Below, piece after piece: positions 7,567 through 17,162 of a DNA stretch of 42,454 nucleotides. The position numbers and the translations under genes are program-made. The stretch comes from Chloroflexaceae bacterium (lineage in GTDB: Bacteria > Chloroflexota > Chloroflexia > Chloroflexales > Chloroflexaceae), in assembly GCA_012031225.1 (NCBI GenBank), contig JAAUTZ010000023.1, forward strand, positions 1 to 42,454, in the 5' to 3' direction. The stretch's first letter is position 1. Every line of letters begins with the position of its first letter. Below the pieces are notes generated by a model. It searched no databases. It saw only the letters and a program-made list of their open reading frames with translations, and had not been told where the DNA came from.

Positions 7567-7595
7567 TTGTCAAAATGCAACAAGTTTTGTATAAT
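7567..7595 (+). promoter_or_regulatory. Sigma-70-type promoter of first dctP gene
   Basis: TTGTCA (7567-7572) and TATAAT (7590-7595) are separated by exactly 17 bases, a near-consensus promoter. The same element with the same spacing occurs before the second dctP copy. Predicted transcription start is near 7602, giving a leader of about 57 bases. Confidence 0.85.
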
Positions 7596-7604
7596 CACAT
7601 GTGC

Positions 7605-7624
7605 AATGAGATAAATGTCTCATT
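7605..7624 (+). promoter_or_regulatory. Inverted repeat in the leader of first dctP
   Basis: AATGAGA (7605-7611) and TCTCATT (7618-7624) are perfect 7-base complements around a 6-base loop, placed just after the predicted transcription start. It could be an operator or an mRNA hairpin. The second copy keeps the pairing with altered bases. Confidence 0.5.
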
Positions 7625-7658
7625 CAGATCCCAATCGTACCGCATTGAGGAGGAACAC

Positions 7659-8849
7659 ATGGAACGACGAGAGTTTCTACGCGGCGTAGCAGCCGGTATG
7701 CTCGGAGGTACGGCCCTGTACCTCGGCGCATGTGGGGCGGCTGCCCCGCCCGCTGCCGAACCGCAAGCCCCCGCCGCCCCCGGCGGCGAAGCCCCAGCTG
7801 ATGCTGGTGAAACCGCACAGGCCCCTGCCGCCCAGACTGAAGGCGAAAACATCGAATGGCAGATGACCACGAGCTGGCCCGAATCGCTTGACACCATTCA
7901 CGGTGGGGCTATCGAGGTTGCTGCCCGTGTTGAAGCCATGACCGGCGGCAAGTTTACAATCAAAGTCAATCAAGCCGGTGAGATCGTCGGCGGGCTTGAA
8001 GTCTTGGATGCCGTCCAATCCGACACCGTCCAGACGGGCCACACGGCAAGCTACTACTACGTTGGCAAGAACGAAACCTTTGGCTTCGCAACATCAGTCC
8101 CGTTCGGCTTGAACGCCCAGCAGCAGAATGCATGGCTGTATCACGGCGGCGGCTTGGAGCTGCTCGACCCGCTCTTCGCCGAGTTTGGCGTGAAGGCCTT
8201 CCCCGCCGGCAACACCACCGCCCAAATGGGGGGCTGGTACAAGCGCGAGGTCAACACCCTCGCCGATATGCAAGGGCTGAAGTTCCGCATCCCCGGTCTT
8301 GGCGGGCGGGTGATGGAGCGCATCGGCGTGGTGACGCAAACCTTGCCGGGTGGTGAGATCTTCCTCGCACTTCAGACCGGCGCAATTGATGCCGCCGAGT
8401 GGATTGGCCCGTATGACGACCAGAAGCTCGGCCTGAACGAGGCGGCCGACTTCTACTACTATCCGGGCTGGTGGGAGCCGGGCCCCACGCTCGACTGCTA
8501 CATCAACCTCAACGAGTGGAATAGCCTCAGCACCACCTATCAGGAGATCTTCAAATCGGCCTGCTACCACGCCAACGTGGATATGATCGCCAAGTATGAT
8601 GCCCGCAACCAAGCCGCCCTGAATGAGATGATCGGCACGGGCACGCAAGTCAAGCCCTACTCGCAGGATATTCTGGCTGGCGCACAGAAGGCGGCGTTTG
8701 AACTCTATGATGAACTGGCAAGCACGGATCCGACGTTCTTCGCGCCGACCTATACCGCATGGAAGCAGTTCCGCGAAGATATTTATGGGTGGAACCTGAT
8801 CAACGAACTGAGCTTCTCCTCGTTCGTGACGAACAACCCGATTGGCTAA
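7659..8849 (+). CDS. dctP: TRAP transporter solute-binding lipoprotein, TakP-like (copy 1)
   Basis: A 396-residue substrate-binding protein of a TRAP transporter, held outside the membrane. The start at ATG 7659 follows a strong GAGGAGG site. The N-terminus has a twin-arginine motif (MERREFLRG) and a lipobox LGAC with cysteine 25, so it is probably a Tat-exported lipoprotein, followed by an Ala/Pro/Glu-rich linker. The binding domain (TSWPESLDTIHGG, GHTASYYYVGK, KFRIPGLGGRVMERIG, LPGGEIFLALQTGAIDAAEW, FYYYPGWWEPG) reads like the 2-oxoacid binder TakP of Rhodobacter, where the Glu-Trp pair equivalent to AEW here helps bind ligand and sodium. The ligand is therefore probably a 2-oxo acid such as pyruvate. 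A second copy follows; dctM and dctQ lie nearby on the other strand. Confidence 0.92.
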   Translation: MERREFLRGVAAGMLGGTALYLGACGAAAPPAAEPQAPAAPGGEAPADAGETAQAPAAQTEGENIEWQMTTSWPESLDTIHGGAIEVAARVEAMTGGKFTIKVNQAGEIVGGLEVLDAVQSDTVQTGHTASYYYVGKNETFGFATSVPFGLNAQQQNAWLYHGGGLELLDPLFAEFGVKAFPAGNTTAQMGGWYKREVNTLADMQGLKFRIPGLGGRVMERIGVVTQTLPGGEIFLALQTGAIDAAEWIGPYDDQKLGLNEAADFYYYPGWWEPGPTLDCYINLNEWNSLSTTYQEIFKSACYHANVDMIAKYDARNQAALNEMIGTGTQVKPYSQDILAGAQKAAFELYDELASTDPTFFAPTYTAWKQFREDIYGWNLINELSFSSFVTNNPIG

Positions 8850-9040: not shown

Positions 9041-9069
9041 TTGTCAAATTACACCAAGTTTTGTATAAT
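9041..9069 (+). promoter_or_regulatory. Sigma-70-type promoter of second dctP gene
   Basis: TTGTCA (9041-9046) and TATAAT (9064-9069) are spaced by 17 bases. The AAGTTTTG before the -10 matches the first copy, so the promoter was duplicated with the gene. Confidence 0.85.
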
Positions 9070-9078
9070 CATACTTGT

Positions 9079-9098
9079 AGTGAGGCTTGTGTCTCATT
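9079..9098 (+). promoter_or_regulatory. Inverted repeat in the leader of second dctP
   Basis: AGTGAG (9079-9084) can pair with CTCATT (9093-9098), with one G-U pair and an 8-base loop. It sits where the perfect inverted repeat of the first copy lies. The loop differs but the pairing is kept. Confidence 0.4.
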
Positions 9099-9121
9099 CA
9101 GATTTTATTGAGGAGGAATAC

Positions 9122-10312
9122 ATGGAACGACGAGAGTTTCTACGTGGCGTAGCAGCCGGTATGCTCGGAGGTACGGCCCTGTACCTCGGCGCATGCGGCG
9201 CGGCTGCCCCGCCCGCTGCCGAACCGCAAGCCCCCGCCGCACCCGGCGGCGAAGCCCCAGCTGGTTCGGGTGAAACTGCTCAGGCCCCTGCCGCCCAGAC
9301 CGAAGGCGAAAACATCGAATGGCAGATGACCACGAGCTGGCCCGAATCACTTGACACCATTCACGGTGGGGCTATCGAGGTTGCTGCCCGTGTTGAAGCC
9401 ATGACCGGCGGCAAGTTTACGATCAAAGTCAATCAAGCCGGTGAGATCGTCGGCGGGCTTGAAGTCTTGGATGCTGTCCAATCCAACACCGTCCAGACGG
9501 GCCACACGGCAAGCTACTACTACGTTGGCAAGAACGAAACCTTTGTCTTCGCTGCTTCAATCCCGTTCGGCTTGAACACCCAGCAGCAGAATGCATGGCT
9601 GTATCACGGCGGCGGCTTGGAGCTGCTCGACCCGCTCTTCGCCGAGTTTGGCGTGAAGGCCTTCCCCGCCGGCAACACCACCGCCCAAATGGGGGGCTGG
9701 TACAAGCGCGAGGTCAACACCCTCGCCGATATGCAAGGGCTGAAGTTCCGCATCCCCGGTCTTGGCGGGCGGGTGATGGAGCGCATCGGCGTAGTGACGC
9801 AAACCTTGCCGGGTGGTGAGATTTTCCTCGCACTTCAGACCGGCGCAATTGATGCCGCCGAGTGGCTTGGCCCGTATGACGACCAGAAGCTCGGCCTGAA
9901 CGAGGCGGCCGACTTCTACTACTATCCGGGCTGGTGGGAGCCGGGCACCACGCTCGACTGCTACATCAACCTCAACGAGTGGAATAGCCTCAGCACCACC
10001 TATCAGGAAATCTTCAAGACGGCCTGCTACCACGCCAATGTGAATATGATCGCCAAGTATGATGCCCTCAACCAAGCCGCCCTGAATGAGATGATCGGCA
10101 CGGGCACGCAAGTCAAGGCCTATTCGCAGGATATTATGGTGGGCGCACAGAAGGCGGCGTTTGAACTCTATGATGAACTGGCAAGCACGGATCCGACGTT
10201 CTTCGCGCCGACCTATACCGCATGGAAGCAGTTCCGCGAAGATATTTATGCGTGGAACCTAATCAACGAACTGAGCTTCTCCTCGTTCGTGACGAACAAC
10301 CCGATTGGCTAA
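9122..10312 (+). CDS. dctP: TRAP transporter solute-binding lipoprotein, TakP-like (copy 2)
   Basis: A tandem paralogue of the preceding gene, also 396 residues, with the same Tat/lipoprotein N-terminus (MERREFLRG, cysteine 25) and strong GAGGAGG ribosome site. By eye it differs from copy 1 at about 16 positions (roughly 96% identity). Four changes cluster in one short stretch (FGFATSVPFGLNAQ becomes FVFAASIPFGLNTQ) and one is next to the ligand-binding Glu-Trp (EWIG to EWLG). The similarity extends through the promoter and the terminator, which marks a recent duplication of about 1.46 kb. The binder probably serves the same DctQM membrane unit, perhaps with shifted ligand preference or simply higher dose. 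Confidence 0.92.
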   Translation: MERREFLRGVAAGMLGGTALYLGACGAAAPPAAEPQAPAAPGGEAPAGSGETAQAPAAQTEGENIEWQMTTSWPESLDTIHGGAIEVAARVEAMTGGKFTIKVNQAGEIVGGLEVLDAVQSNTVQTGHTASYYYVGKNETFVFAASIPFGLNTQQQNAWLYHGGGLELLDPLFAEFGVKAFPAGNTTAQMGGWYKREVNTLADMQGLKFRIPGLGGRVMERIGVVTQTLPGGEIFLALQTGAIDAAEWLGPYDDQKLGLNEAADFYYYPGWWEPGTTLDCYINLNEWNSLSTTYQEIFKTACYHANVNMIAKYDALNQAALNEMIGTGTQVKAYSQDIMVGAQKAAFELYDELASTDPTFFAPTYTAWKQFREDIYAWNLINELSFSSFVTNNPIG

Positions 10313-11486: not shown

Positions 11487-12883
11487 TTAGGTTGCCGGAG
11501 CCGCCACACCCTTCGATAGCTCGATCAGGTAGGTGACAATTTCTGGACGGGCGATCACAATCGCAAGGGCGATGAGCTGGATGATGATGAATGGCACCGC
11601 CCCACGATAGATATGCCCCGTGTTGATCTGGTCACGCGGGGCAACCCCGCGCAGGTAGAACAGCGAGAAGCCGAACGGCGGCGAGAGGAACGAGGTCTGC
11701 AAGTTGACCCCGATCACCACGCCAAACCAGCGCAGGTCAATGCCATAGGCAACCGCCGCAGGCACAAGCAGCGGTAGCACGATGAAGGCGATCTCGAAGA
11801 AGTCAATGAAGAAGCCGAGCACAAAGATCAGCAACATACTGGCGATGATGAAGCCCCAGTAGCCGCCGGGCAAGCTCAGGAACACATCCGTCACCAGCTC
11901 ATCGCCGCCTAGCCCACGAAACACGAGCGCAAAGACGGTGGAGCCGAAGAGGATGAACATCACCATCGTGGCGACCCGCAGCGTCTCATCCGCTACTCGG
12001 CGCACCGTGCGGAGCGAGAGGCGCCGATTGGCAAGAGCCAGCATCGTTGCCCCAAGCGCACCAACTGCGCCCGCTTCGGTGGCGGAGGCCACGCCAAAGA
12101 AGATGCTGCCCAGCACCGCAAAGATCAGGACAATCGGCGGGATCATCACCTTAACGACCCGCAACGCCAACTGCCCGCCCGTAATCGTCCGCATCTCAAT
12201 CGGTAGGGCTGGAGCCATCTTGGGGAAGATCAGCGCAAGCACGCCCACGTAGATGACGTAGAAGCCGGAGATCATCAAGCCCGGCAGGATCGTGCCGATG
12301 AACAGATCACCGACGGAGGTGCCAGCTGGGCCGCCAACACCACCAGCACCACGCTCGGCGGGATCACCTGTCCGAGTGTGCCTGAGGCACAAATCACGCC
12401 ACAGATCAGCTCTTTGTTGTAGCCGTAGCGCAGCATGATCGGGAGCGAGATCATGCTCATTGCGACCACTGTTGCGGCCACCACGCCTGTCGTTGCCGCG
12501 AGCAGCGTGCCCACAATCACGATGGCGATGCCCAAGCCGCCGCGCATGGGCCCAAACAGAATGCCCATCGTTTCCAACAGGTCTTCAGCTAGCCCGGATT
12601 TCTCCAGCATCGAACCCATAAAGACGAAGTAGGGGATCGCAAGAAGGGTAAAGTTACTCATCGTCCCAAACAAGCGGTTGGGCAGTGCATTGAGCAGGTT
12701 GAGTGAGAATACATCCATGCTAATGCCGATGAAGGCAAACACCATCGCCGCGCCCGAAATCGAGAAGGTGACGGGGTAGCCAGTGCCCAAGAAGATGACG
12801 AGCAAGCCGAACATGGCCAACCCAAGCAGTTCCGTCGGGTCTTGCAGGGTAATTCCTAAAAAGAACAACTCATACCACGCCAT
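11487..12883 (-). CDS. dctM: TRAP transporter large permease DctM, frameshifted
   Basis: The large membrane subunit of a TRAP transporter, which carries the substrate with sodium. The N-terminal part ([20 protein letters not shown] to [14 protein letters not shown]) reads from 12883. The remainder ([20 protein letters not shown] to SKGVAAPAT) lies in another frame and ends at 11487. In DctM proteins these stretches are continuous (QLG.SVGDLF), and one added G/C base near 12321-12326 (GCCAGC) restores this, giving about 465 residues and a typical 11-13-helix protein. Other family stretches are [36 protein letters not shown] and [16 protein letters not shown]-like [17 protein letters not shown]. 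It starts 2 bases after dctQ ends. The binding-protein genes lie on the opposite strand. Confidence 0.87.
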
Positions 12884-14165: not shown

Positions 14166-16325
14166 TTATTCGCTCTGAAACACAAACATCCACAGGGTCG
14201 CGCTCATCATAATGCTGAGCAAGAGCGGCCAGAAGGTGGCTTTGGCGATCAGGTTGTTCCCGAAGCGGATGAACGGGAGCTGCGGCTGGCGCACCACCAG
14301 AAAGGTGTTTGCCGCAACTCCTAACAACAGGACGTAGAGCAGCAGGTAGAAGTATTCGAGATAGGTCAGCCCAATTGCGGCGGCATTCTCACGCAGTGCC
14401 GTATGCAGCACGGCAATCACGAAGAACAAGGCCGCTGAGTAGTTCAGCGCACTGACAATCTCCTCTGGCTCATGGGGCTGGCTGCCATTCATCAGGAAGG
14501 CGAAAATCAAGATTGCCGTGACGAGGGCGGGCAGCACGAAGGTGATAAAAGGGCCCACAAACTGCCGCTCGGTGCGGATGTTGAAATTCAGCTCTGGCAC
14601 GGCCAGTGTTGGTCGCCCCGCAAAGCCCAGCGCGGTCTGGTAATCGTTGCGTTCGTAGCTGAAGAAGCTGCGCTGGATCACCCAATTGTTGAACAGGATG
14701 GTGCTATCCAGCCCCGGACGGGACTCGGGCAAGGTCACGGTATAGCCTTCGAGATCGGGCACGAGGACCACATGTTGGGCAACTTCGGCGGGGATCAGCC
14801 GAATGCGGACATCGTTGACATCGAATGGGTACTGCTCAGGATTGAAAATCTGGCGCAGGGCAAGCGAAATCTCCCACACATAGACGATCTCATCGCCCTG
14901 TTGTTCGGCGGCCACCTGCTCGATCATATACGGATCATCAATGCGTTGTGGGAACGTCACGCCGGGTGTTATTTCCTCGACCAAATCAAGTGGTACGCGT
15001 TGCCACACATAGCCACCTAGCACGACTGAGGTGGCATCGGGGAAGCGTACCGCTTGCAGCAGGATGCCCGTCGGCAACGTCACCGGATCAGGTAGATCGG
15101 CGCGGGTTGGATCAGTGCTGATCTTTTGCAGGTAGGTATTCAGCTCGGCGGTATTGCGGATCGGCACGCCGTAGGTGCGCGGTACGGCACGGGCTAGCAG
15201 CAAGGTTGCGAGCAGCACCACCAGTAACACACCGGATGTCACCACCGATAGTTGCCAGAGCGGGCGCGGGTTGCCGGTCTCAGCCCGCACAGCCAGCGCG
15301 GAAGCCGTGATCGCAAGTGCCGCCGCCGTGAGGAGGAGCCACGTTTGGCGCAGCAAGAGCAGGCGCGGTTCCGGTAGAAAATCGGCTTGCGGTAGCTCCA
15401 CGCCCAACACCCAACCGGTGCTTTCAATCGGCGTGACAAAGTTCCACACCAGCTCGCCCGTCTGTGCATTGCGCCGCTCAAAGCCGTAGCTCTCGCCCGC
15501 CAGTCCCCGTTGCACTGCCTCTCGGAAGGCGGTTTCAGAGGGCGCACGGAAAGCCGGTTGGGTCACTTCGGACTGTACCGGATGGGCGAGAAACACCTCA
15601 CCCGCCGATACCACCACCCCGAATCCGGTTGCCCCCAGATCAAGGTCATTCACCAATTGGCGCACGCCATCAAGCGTATAATCCACCGCCACGACACCAG
15701 CGGGCGTAGTCGGGTCATCCACACGGGAAAAGGGCACGCCATACTCAATTAGCCCCTTGCCCGCCCCCGCCCCTCGAAACGGCTCCGTCCACTGTGCGCC
15801 CTCGGCGATGGGGCGCGTATACCACGCCGTCGCTGGATCGTTTGGCCCCCCCGGAGATGCCACGGTGTAATCGTAGCGCGATTCGCCAACCTGTATCTGC
15901 ATCACTCCATCGGCGGCACGGCTGATGGAGACGATGTAGCGATCATACGCATCGGCGAAGGCTTGCGGCGCAAACGCCACCGTAATCCCATCAATCGTGG
16001 CATTGCGCTGCAAAGCCGCACTCACGCGCCCTTCGATCAGATCATACGGGATCGCGCCACTGCTGAGATCCGCCGCGAGTCGTTCGGCGAGTTGCTCAGA
16101 CTGGGCAAAGATCGCACTGAGTTGGGCCGCTGCTGCATCTGCTTCGGCTTGCGCGAGCTGCGCGGCAGTGGCGGTCGTCTCAGCTTGATAGCGCACATAG
16201 CCGATGATCTGCCCGACGAACGCCAGCGCGAGCGCAACCGTTGCCACCCACAACGCCCAGCGCAAGCCGCGCCCCCAGCGCGGATGCAGTGCAATCGGTT
16301 GTGGGGGTGGTGTTGTGCGGTGCAT
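14166..16325 (-). CDS. Cache sensor fused to a pentameric ligand-gated ion channel (pLGIC) subunit
   Basis: A 719-residue membrane protein. Helix 1 (residues 21-43) leads to an extracellular double-Cache-like sensor (about 50-318; AWYTRPIAEG at 167, GVVAVDYTLDG at 210). Two further helices (328-346 and 358-380) form a hairpin that returns the chain outside. A beta-rich block of about 207 residues (381-588) follows, the size of a pLGIC ligand-binding domain. It holds YPFD at 499-502, where GLIC has YPFDSQ in its Cys-loop equivalent; like other bacterial members it has no Cys pair. The RTERQFVGPFITFVLPALV segment matches pre-M1/M1, with the M1 proline kept. M1-M4 lie near 590-612, 625-645, 654-678 and 696-716, with a short M3-M4 loop and an external C-terminus. 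Topology agrees with pLGICs throughout. The channel call rests on comparison with GLIC from memory; gating and ligand are unknown. Confidence 0.72.
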   Translation of the reverse strand: MHRTTPPPQPIALHPRWGRGLRWALWVATVALALAFVGQIIGYVRYQAETTATAAQLAQAEADAAAAQLSAIFAQSEQLAERLAADLSSGAIPYDLIEGRVSAALQRNATIDGITVAFAPQAFADAYDRYIVSISRAADGVMQIQVGESRYDYTVASPGGPNDPATAWYTRPIAEGAQWTEPFRGAGAGKGLIEYGVPFSRVDDPTTPAGVVAVDYTLDGVRQLVNDLDLGATGFGVVVSAGEVFLAHPVQSEVTQPAFRAPSETAFREAVQRGLAGESYGFERRNAQTGELVWNFVTPIESTGWVLGVELPQADFLPEPRLLLLRQTWLLLTAAALAITASALAVRAETGNPRPLWQLSVVTSGVLLVVLLATLLLARAVPRTYGVPIRNTAELNTYLQKISTDPTRADLPDPVTLPTGILLQAVRFPDATSVVLGGYVWQRVPLDLVEEITPGVTFPQRIDDPYMIEQVAAEQQGDEIVYVWEISLALRQIFNPEQYPFDVNDVRIRLIPAEVAQHVVLVPDLEGYTVTLPESRPGLDSTILFNNWVIQRSFFSYERNDYQTALGFAGRPTLAVPELNFNIRTERQFVGPFITFVLPALVTAILIFAFLMNGSQPHEPEEIVSALNYSAALFFVIAVLHTALRENAAAIGLTYLEYFYLLLYVLLLGVAANTFLVVRQPQLPFIRFGNNLIAKATFWPLLLSIMMSATLWMFVFQSE

Positions 16326-16331
16326 ATTTCG

Positions 16332-17162
16332 TTAGCTCCCCCAATCGTTGCGATAGTGTGCATCATCATGGCCCATCACCCGCCGATACACATTATCGCG
16401 CTGAAAGCCAAAGTACAGCAGCCACATGCCTACCAGAAACAGGGTCACTGCCACCGCAAGGTAGATCGTCCCAGTGAGGCGGGTAACAGGAATGGCATCA
16501 TCCATGAAGCCGAAGCGCAAGATCATGCCCAACCCGAATGGGCAACAGCTCCCGAAGAAGGCGAAGAAGCCACACCCAATCATCACCCCCGTCAAGCGCG
16601 GATTGGGCAACGCTACGGGATCGGCATCATCCGTAGGCACAAGCGGCTCCGGCTCTGGGAAGGGCGGGGCAAGCGGCATGGGCGGCGGGCTAGGTGGGTG
16701 CGGCGTGTGGCGCAGGTAGGCGGGGGCATCTTCGCGCACTTGCACCGGTAGCACCGTATCGTGCTGCGGATCGCGCAGCCACGTCCAGCTAATTTCGTAT
16801 AGCTCAGCCACACTGCGTTCAAGCGCAAGCTCAAGCTGGAGCGCACGGCCCATGCGGGTAGCGATCTGCTGGGCTTGCTGTAGCCCCTCCCGCAGCACCT
16901 CCGGCGCAAACACGGCTTGGGCCAGCAGCGTGCCGTATGCTGCTGGATCGGCGTGAGCGGCTCGTAACGCCTCGGCGGGGAACTGCACCGCAAACTCGGC
17001 AGCCGGCTCATCCGGAGCCGATTCATTTCCATCCGTTGCAGTCAGGCGGAGGGCTTCGTTGGCAGGGATCAGGAGATCAAGCTGAACGGCGTAGCTATTG
17101 CCCACCCCCGGATAGAGGAACAGCCGCAGGCAGACCGGCGGGGAAGTAGGATCGAAAGCCAT
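16332..17162 (-). CDS. Membrane protein with a CHAT-protein N-terminal-like region
   Basis: A 276-residue protein. Residues 55-150 resemble the region that precedes the caspase-like domain in many CHAT proteins: AAYGTLLAQAVFAPEVLREGL followed by ALQLELALERSVAELYEISWTWLRDP and a PAYLRHT ending, compared with the usual LRLRL...PELA.LPWE.L.DP...L. The catalytic CHAT domain is absent. Instead there is a Pro-rich linker (about 153-188), two membrane helices (191-215 and 229-253) and a short charged tail. The soluble part is probably cytoplasmic because no signal peptide is seen, though orientation is uncertain. Its stop lies 6 bases before the start of the Cache-pLGIC gene, so the two are very likely co-translated, and it follows azlD by 33 bases. 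No enzymatic function can be assigned. Confidence 0.6.
   Translation of the reverse strand: MAFDPTSPPVCLRLFLYPGVGNSYAVQLDLLIPANEALRLTATDGNESAPDEPAAEFAVQFPAEALRAAHADPAAYGTLLAQAVFAPEVLREGLQQAQQIATRMGRALQLELALERSVAELYEISWTWLRDPQHDTVLPVQVREDAPAYLRHTPHPPSPPPMPLAPPFPEPEPLVPTDDADPVALPNPRLTGVMIGCGFFAFFGSCCPFGLGMILRFGFMDDAIPVTRLTGTIYLAVAVTLFLVGMWLLYFGFQRDNVYRRVMGHDDAHYRNDWGS

Follow-up and report, generated by a model that had tools for sequence, protein, structure and literature searches.

A Chloroflexota protein predicted to join an extracytoplasmic dCache sensor and a membrane hairpin to a divergent relative of the pentameric ligand-gated ion channels

A long gene in a 42,454-nucleotide stretch of Chloroflexaceae DNA (the window) raises the question of whether a bacterium has attached a chemoreceptor-type sensor to a relative of the pentameric ligand-gated ion channels (pLGICs), and, if so, which of the two parts receives the signal. 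The open reading frame (14166..16325) lies on the minus strand, as do all of the protein features described below; the strand was missing from an earlier note that had proposed such a fusion from the nucleotide sequence. The frame is single and uninterrupted over 719 codons from an ATG start, and it has orthologues. Comparison with a 91% identical orthologue from the same genus gives a dN/dS of 0.22 for the whole gene and, by part, 0.19 for the Cache domain, 0.31 for the ectodomain and 0.10 for the channel helices, so the reading frame is under purifying selection throughout, with the channel helices its most constrained segment. The architecture, as modelled, is a dCache sensor outside, an extra membrane hairpin and then a very divergent pLGIC relative, in the predicted order TM1-dCache-TM2-TM3-ectodomain-M1-M4.

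The placement of the C-terminal half depends mainly on its predicted fold. In a model of residues 379-719 (built on 11 sequences; mean pLDDT 66, lowest around the M2-M3 region) a short helix is followed by beta strands and then by four helices, and the strands would form a pLGIC-type beta-sandwich ectodomain (residues 381-588, 14562..15185). Foldseek puts GLIC at the top of the PDB matches of this model (E 4.9e-11, probability 1.00), and the matches listed are GLIC and the glycine and GABA-A receptors, i.e., pLGICs; DeCLIC is absent among the fold matches listed, which is not evidence of a differing fold. VIA-align superimposes the same model on GLIC with a Z of 14.9 over about 275 residues (rmsd 4.5-5.1), and the full-length model with a Z of 17.4 over 278 residues. 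At the profile level, hhalign scores 47.2 when a profile built from 12 family members is aligned with GLIC plus ELIC (whose query sequences agree letter for letter with the PDB entries), while 60 block-shuffled controls, in which the ectodomain and the helices were shuffled separately, average 15.7 (sd 2.9, maximum 26.6). Model, Foldseek, VIA-align and profile score thus all agree with the earlier note's view of the C-terminal 340 residues as pLGIC-like, and the check which that note had set in advance on residues 381-719 gave a pLGIC fold (by the PDB matches listed) and no convincing match to another family. The C-terminal half is therefore supported, by its modelled fold and aligned sequence, as a divergent member of the pLGIC (Pro-loop) superfamily.

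Ordinary family searches do not see this relationship. None of the 11 aligned members has a convincing Pfam or NCBIfam match in its last 340 residues, and the Pfam pLGIC models (Neur_chan_LBD and related) match neither these C-terminal halves nor the Vibrio or Acaryochloris homologue; such a match is a convenience rather than the definition of the family, so its absence is not decisive for membership. A PDB sequence search with a channel profile of eight sequences returned nothing up to E 10, so the fold and profile-profile comparisons were needed. PF02931 was silent in the source genome and in 400 Chloroflexota genomes, and it was silent in 14 control genomes too, so this leaves the absence of such channels unproven; GLIC itself found no match in the plasmid collection.

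The seven most conserved pLGIC positions have been tabulated by Jaiteh et al. (2016, Table 1; PMC4795631), and six of them are kept in every homologue: the F/Y, P and D of the Pro loop, W548, R587 and P599. The tip of the beta6-beta7 loop, the Pro loop, reads YPFD (residues 499-502, 14820..14831), and its P and D, conserved in 100% and 93% of pLGICs (PMC4795631), are invariant in the Chloroflexota, Vibrio and Acaryochloris proteins. W548 (14682..14684), the core tryptophan of strand beta-9, and R587 (14565..14567), the pre-M1 arginine in RTERQF (94% in the same survey), are both invariant and align with GLIC W160 and R192, respectively; P599, the M1 kink proline in VLPAL (77%), is invariant across the homologues. 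These motifs and the four C-terminal helices, all pointed out in the earlier note, are indeed present, are invariant or nearly so among homologues at 34-44% identity and are mostly kept in the Vibrio and Acaryochloris proteins at 24-29% identity, so they are not due to chance. The M2-M3 proline found in 88% of pLGICs (PMC4795631) is lacking in the Chloroflexota and Vibrio members and present in the Acaryochloris protein; since 12% of accepted pLGICs lack it, its loss leaves membership standing. The Chloroflexota channel also has no basic residue at M2 0' (79% of pLGICs, PMC4795631), and the loop-A WxP motif (classical agonist site) that GLIC and ELIC carry has no counterpart among the homologues. 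By alignment count, about 14 fewer residues than in GLIC separate the strand-2 W from the Pro loop, and strand 9 is preceded by a longer region.

Each subunit is predicted to have seven membrane helices, since the sensor lies outside and the hairpin returns the chain to the outside for the ectodomain. TM1 (about residues 24-44, 16194..16256) is marked by a hydropathy peak at residues 29-36, with four K/R before it, within a model helix (residues 15-89) that runs on into the Cache domain's first long helix. The arms of the hairpin, which had also been anticipated, are modelled as TM2 (residues 320-345, 15291..15368; also seen in hydropathy) and TM3 (residues 353-380, 15186..15269), the latter aligning with, and the counterpart of, the one anchor that the Acaryochloris homologue, which lacks the Cache, has at its N-terminus. 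The channel bundle consists of M1 (residues 591-612, 14490..14555), kinked at the conserved P599, M2 (residues 620-648, 14382..14468), M3 (residues 653-679, 14289..14369) and M4 (residues 692-716, 14178..14252), with a short M3-M4 loop and a C-terminus that is external in the model. The sequence of M2, the presumed pore helix, is unusual (LFFVIA): taking L633 as 9' puts E622 at -2' and requires one deletion in the M2-M3 loop, and an ungapped count makes F634 9'. E622, at the cytoplasmic end, is E or D in 11 of 11 Chloroflexota members, and the Vibrio and Acaryochloris proteins do not clearly keep the acid. In GLIC-type channels, cation selectivity goes with an acid where M2 begins, and the conservation of such an acid in this alignment suggests a cation-selective pore in the Chloroflexota proteins.

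The N-terminal half contains the Cache-type outer sensor that had been claimed for it, an extracytoplasmic dCache domain (residues 45-319, 15369..16193) modelled as two Cache lobes carried by a long N-terminal helix. Pfam dCache_1 matches residues 51-310 (E=4.6e-9 in this protein, below the curated cut-off) and was matched in 11 of 11 aligned members. The best fold matches of the Cache part of the full-length model are 3LIB (Z 24.6), McpX (24.0), 9HEH (23.9), PctD (23.7) and TlpQ (23.3), and amino-acid sensors such as PctA rank lower (Z 18-19). As the earlier note had observed, the aromatic pair of the pocket, W168-Y169 (15819..15824), and the predicted ligand-pocket aspartate D215 (15681..15683) are in place, and both prove invariant in the alignment of 11 members. 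The arginine that was not obvious in the single sequence, the dCache_1AA residue two positions before W-Y (PctA R126), which binds the carboxylate in amino-acid sensors, is absent from 11 of 11, being T166 here and A in one member; the aligned residues therefore make it unlikely that the pocket binds an amino acid in the canonical manner. The amine motif of the dCache_1AM sensors comprises an aromatic pair, a hydrophobic-x-Ser, a final Asp and an upstream R...D insertion (PMC10104139). These sensors (the M. mazei HK 3LIB, McpX and PctD) are the nearest Cache folds (Z 23.7-24.6), and the Chloroflexota Cache has in common with them the aromatic pair, the hydrophobic position (L192) and the final Asp; E194 (Q in one member) stands in the Ser position, and no confident alignment was obtained for the upstream R/D insertion, which is not recognisable in the Cache part. 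An amine-like cation is a possible ligand. The dCache_1AM sensors drive a kinase or a chemoreceptor, whereas the Chloroflexota Cache is joined to a channel.

Homologues of the same layout occur in Candidatus Chloroploca, other Chloroflexales and Anaerolineae at 34-44% identity (one, L021, has its N-terminus cut off), and a Vibrio protein of 692 aa likewise consists of Cache, hairpin and channel, so the architecture that the earlier note had described in one gene is shared. The Acaryochloris homologue (486 aa) has one membrane helix, then the channel module and no Cache, which indicates that the channel module as such does not need the Cache domain. In one relative (L009/L016, G020:C12:146828-148914) the channel gene is in two frames, with the break within M2-M3, owing to a frameshift or an assembly error. 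In Vibrio sp. THAF191d (L036:2522-7654) an SBP_bac_3 gene, a permease-like gene and the Cache-pLGIC gene form an overlapping series, followed by a Lamin Tail Domain gene; the Cache-pLGIC frame overlaps by 4 bases the permease-like gene, so labelled by eye (Pfam gives no firm match). This arrangement recalls the operons with solute-binding proteins in Tasneem et al. (2004, PMC549065). No conserved partner gene was seen in the Chloroflexota neighbourhoods, and the window's neighbours are common only to the same-genus orthologue.

The immediate neighbour in the window is a 276-aa gene (16332-17162, minus strand) that ends 6 bases before the channel gene and is likely co-transcribed with it. It has no Pfam match; inspected by eye, the protein begins with a part reminiscent of the segment that precedes CHAT protease domains and continues with a membrane hairpin of two helices. 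For the same-genus orthologue a relative is found upstream (L017:4051-4860), and none was seen beside the other homologues. Elsewhere in the window are two adjacent DctP-type (TRAP) solute-binding proteins (7575-8849 and 9041-10312, plus strand), with DctQM genes nearby on the opposite strand. The DctM gene (11487-12883, minus strand) is in two overlapping frames covering profile positions 1-157 and 160-413; it is intact (465 aa) in the same-genus genome (L017:8283-9680), and the split is a frameshift mutation or an assembly error.

The fusion is not new in kind, since Tasneem et al. (2004, PMC549065) reported Cache (MCP-N plus Cache)-pLGIC fusions in Methanosarcina, Cytophaga and Microbulbifer; they proposed chemoreception for them and accessory domains that concentrate or pre-sense the ligand. 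Those fusions and the Chloroflexota protein have in common an N-terminal chemoreceptor-type Cache, a pLGIC ligand-binding domain and four TM. In the passages of that paper drawn on here, the extra domains stand between the signal peptide and the ligand-binding domain with no mention of a membrane hairpin, and the species list has no Chloroflexota; literature on Cache plus pLGIC by name yielded nothing beyond that report. What appears to be new is a Pfam-invisible Chloroflexota branch that is hairpin-linked and has a Cache-free relative, a branch set apart from the 2004 proteins (as described in those passages) by description only. One MCP and two CheW-type genes are present in the source genome; they lie on other contigs and so speak neither for nor against the chemotaxis idea of Tasneem et al.

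Among characterised channels, GLIC has the closest fold and also shares YPFD, the beta-9 W, the pre-M1 R, the M1 P, the short M3-M4 loop and the acid near the start of M2, at about 15% identity over the structural alignment. Unlike GLIC, the Chloroflexota channel has no M2-M3 proline, no loop-A WxP and a longer region before strand 9, and is preceded by a Cache domain and three TM helices. DeCLIC (Desulfofustis) is likewise a prokaryotic pLGIC whose gating is influenced by a large extracellular accessory domain, but that domain is formed by two beta-rich jelly-roll lobes that pack against the ectodomain, is not a Cache, and comes with no described hairpin (PMC9897478).

We favour, as probable but well short of assured, a homomeric ion channel of the pLGIC superfamily with an accessory dCache chemosensor. 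Both folds and the topology are predicted and the architecture is conserved, and from these we infer a pentamer, conduction, a selective pore, and a Cache ligand coupled to gating; the single copy of the channel module in the source genome fits a homomer. Each subunit would comprise an anchored dCache (TM1-Cache-TM2), a short cytoplasmic turn and TM3, anchoring the GLIC-like module. Binding of a small ligand in the Cache pocket would displace TM1 and TM2, as in chemoreceptors, and the TM2-TM3 hairpin beside the channel bundle, together with a Cache-ectodomain contact, would shift the closed-open balance of the pore. On the other hand, dCache domains are often dimeric and so offer no obvious match to fivefold symmetry, which counts against the proposed channel.

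The ectodomain might instead be the real receptor, responding as in GLIC and ELIC to protons or a small molecule, with the Cache domain an appendage for assembly, localisation or ligand capture and at most a weak modulator. We consider this somewhat unlikely. It agrees with the conservation of the ectodomain and the purifying selection on it (dN/dS 0.31), with the solitary channel module of Acaryochloris, with DeCLIC, in which the N-terminal domain alters gating kinetics and calcium acts at the ectodomain (PMC9897478), and with the ligand-concentrating or pre-sensing accessory domains of Tasneem et al. (PMC549065); yet the loop-A WxP of the classical agonist site is missing, and the Cache domain is more constrained than the ectodomain (0.19 versus 0.31 in the closest pair), with invariant pocket residues. 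Going beyond the favoured chemosensor-channel, the family might be a clade opened by the outer Cache via the hairpin, its own agonist site largely given up and its pocket (W168, F183, D215, E194) possibly tuned to amine-like cations, which is a speculative and rather doubtful proposal. With the M2-M3 proline and the basic residue at M2 0' both lost, and M2 unusual, the pLGIC fold could have ceased to conduct and now serve as an oligomeric scaffold or signalling body, but the TM part is the most constrained (dN/dS 0.10) and the acid at the start of M2 is kept in 11 sequences, so that we find this quite improbable. That the C-terminal half is some other membrane family superficially like pLGICs, as the lack of a convincing Pfam or NCBIfam match and the middling model confidence might allow, is scarcely credible and largely refuted by two models, Foldseek, VIA-align, the shuffled-control profile alignment and six signature positions.

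Because Pfam misses a branch of the pLGICs, the bacterial spread of the superfamily is probably underestimated. The natural signals of the bacterial relatives of nerve-type channels are mostly unknown, while Cache ligands can be found by binding assays; the Cache-channel family thus offers a route to what a prokaryotic pLGIC senses, and a way to ask whether an outer sensor drives a Cys-loop-type pore from outside the usual site. If there is indeed a clade opened by its outer sensor, it would amount to a Cys-loop-type pore with a plug-in sensor module.
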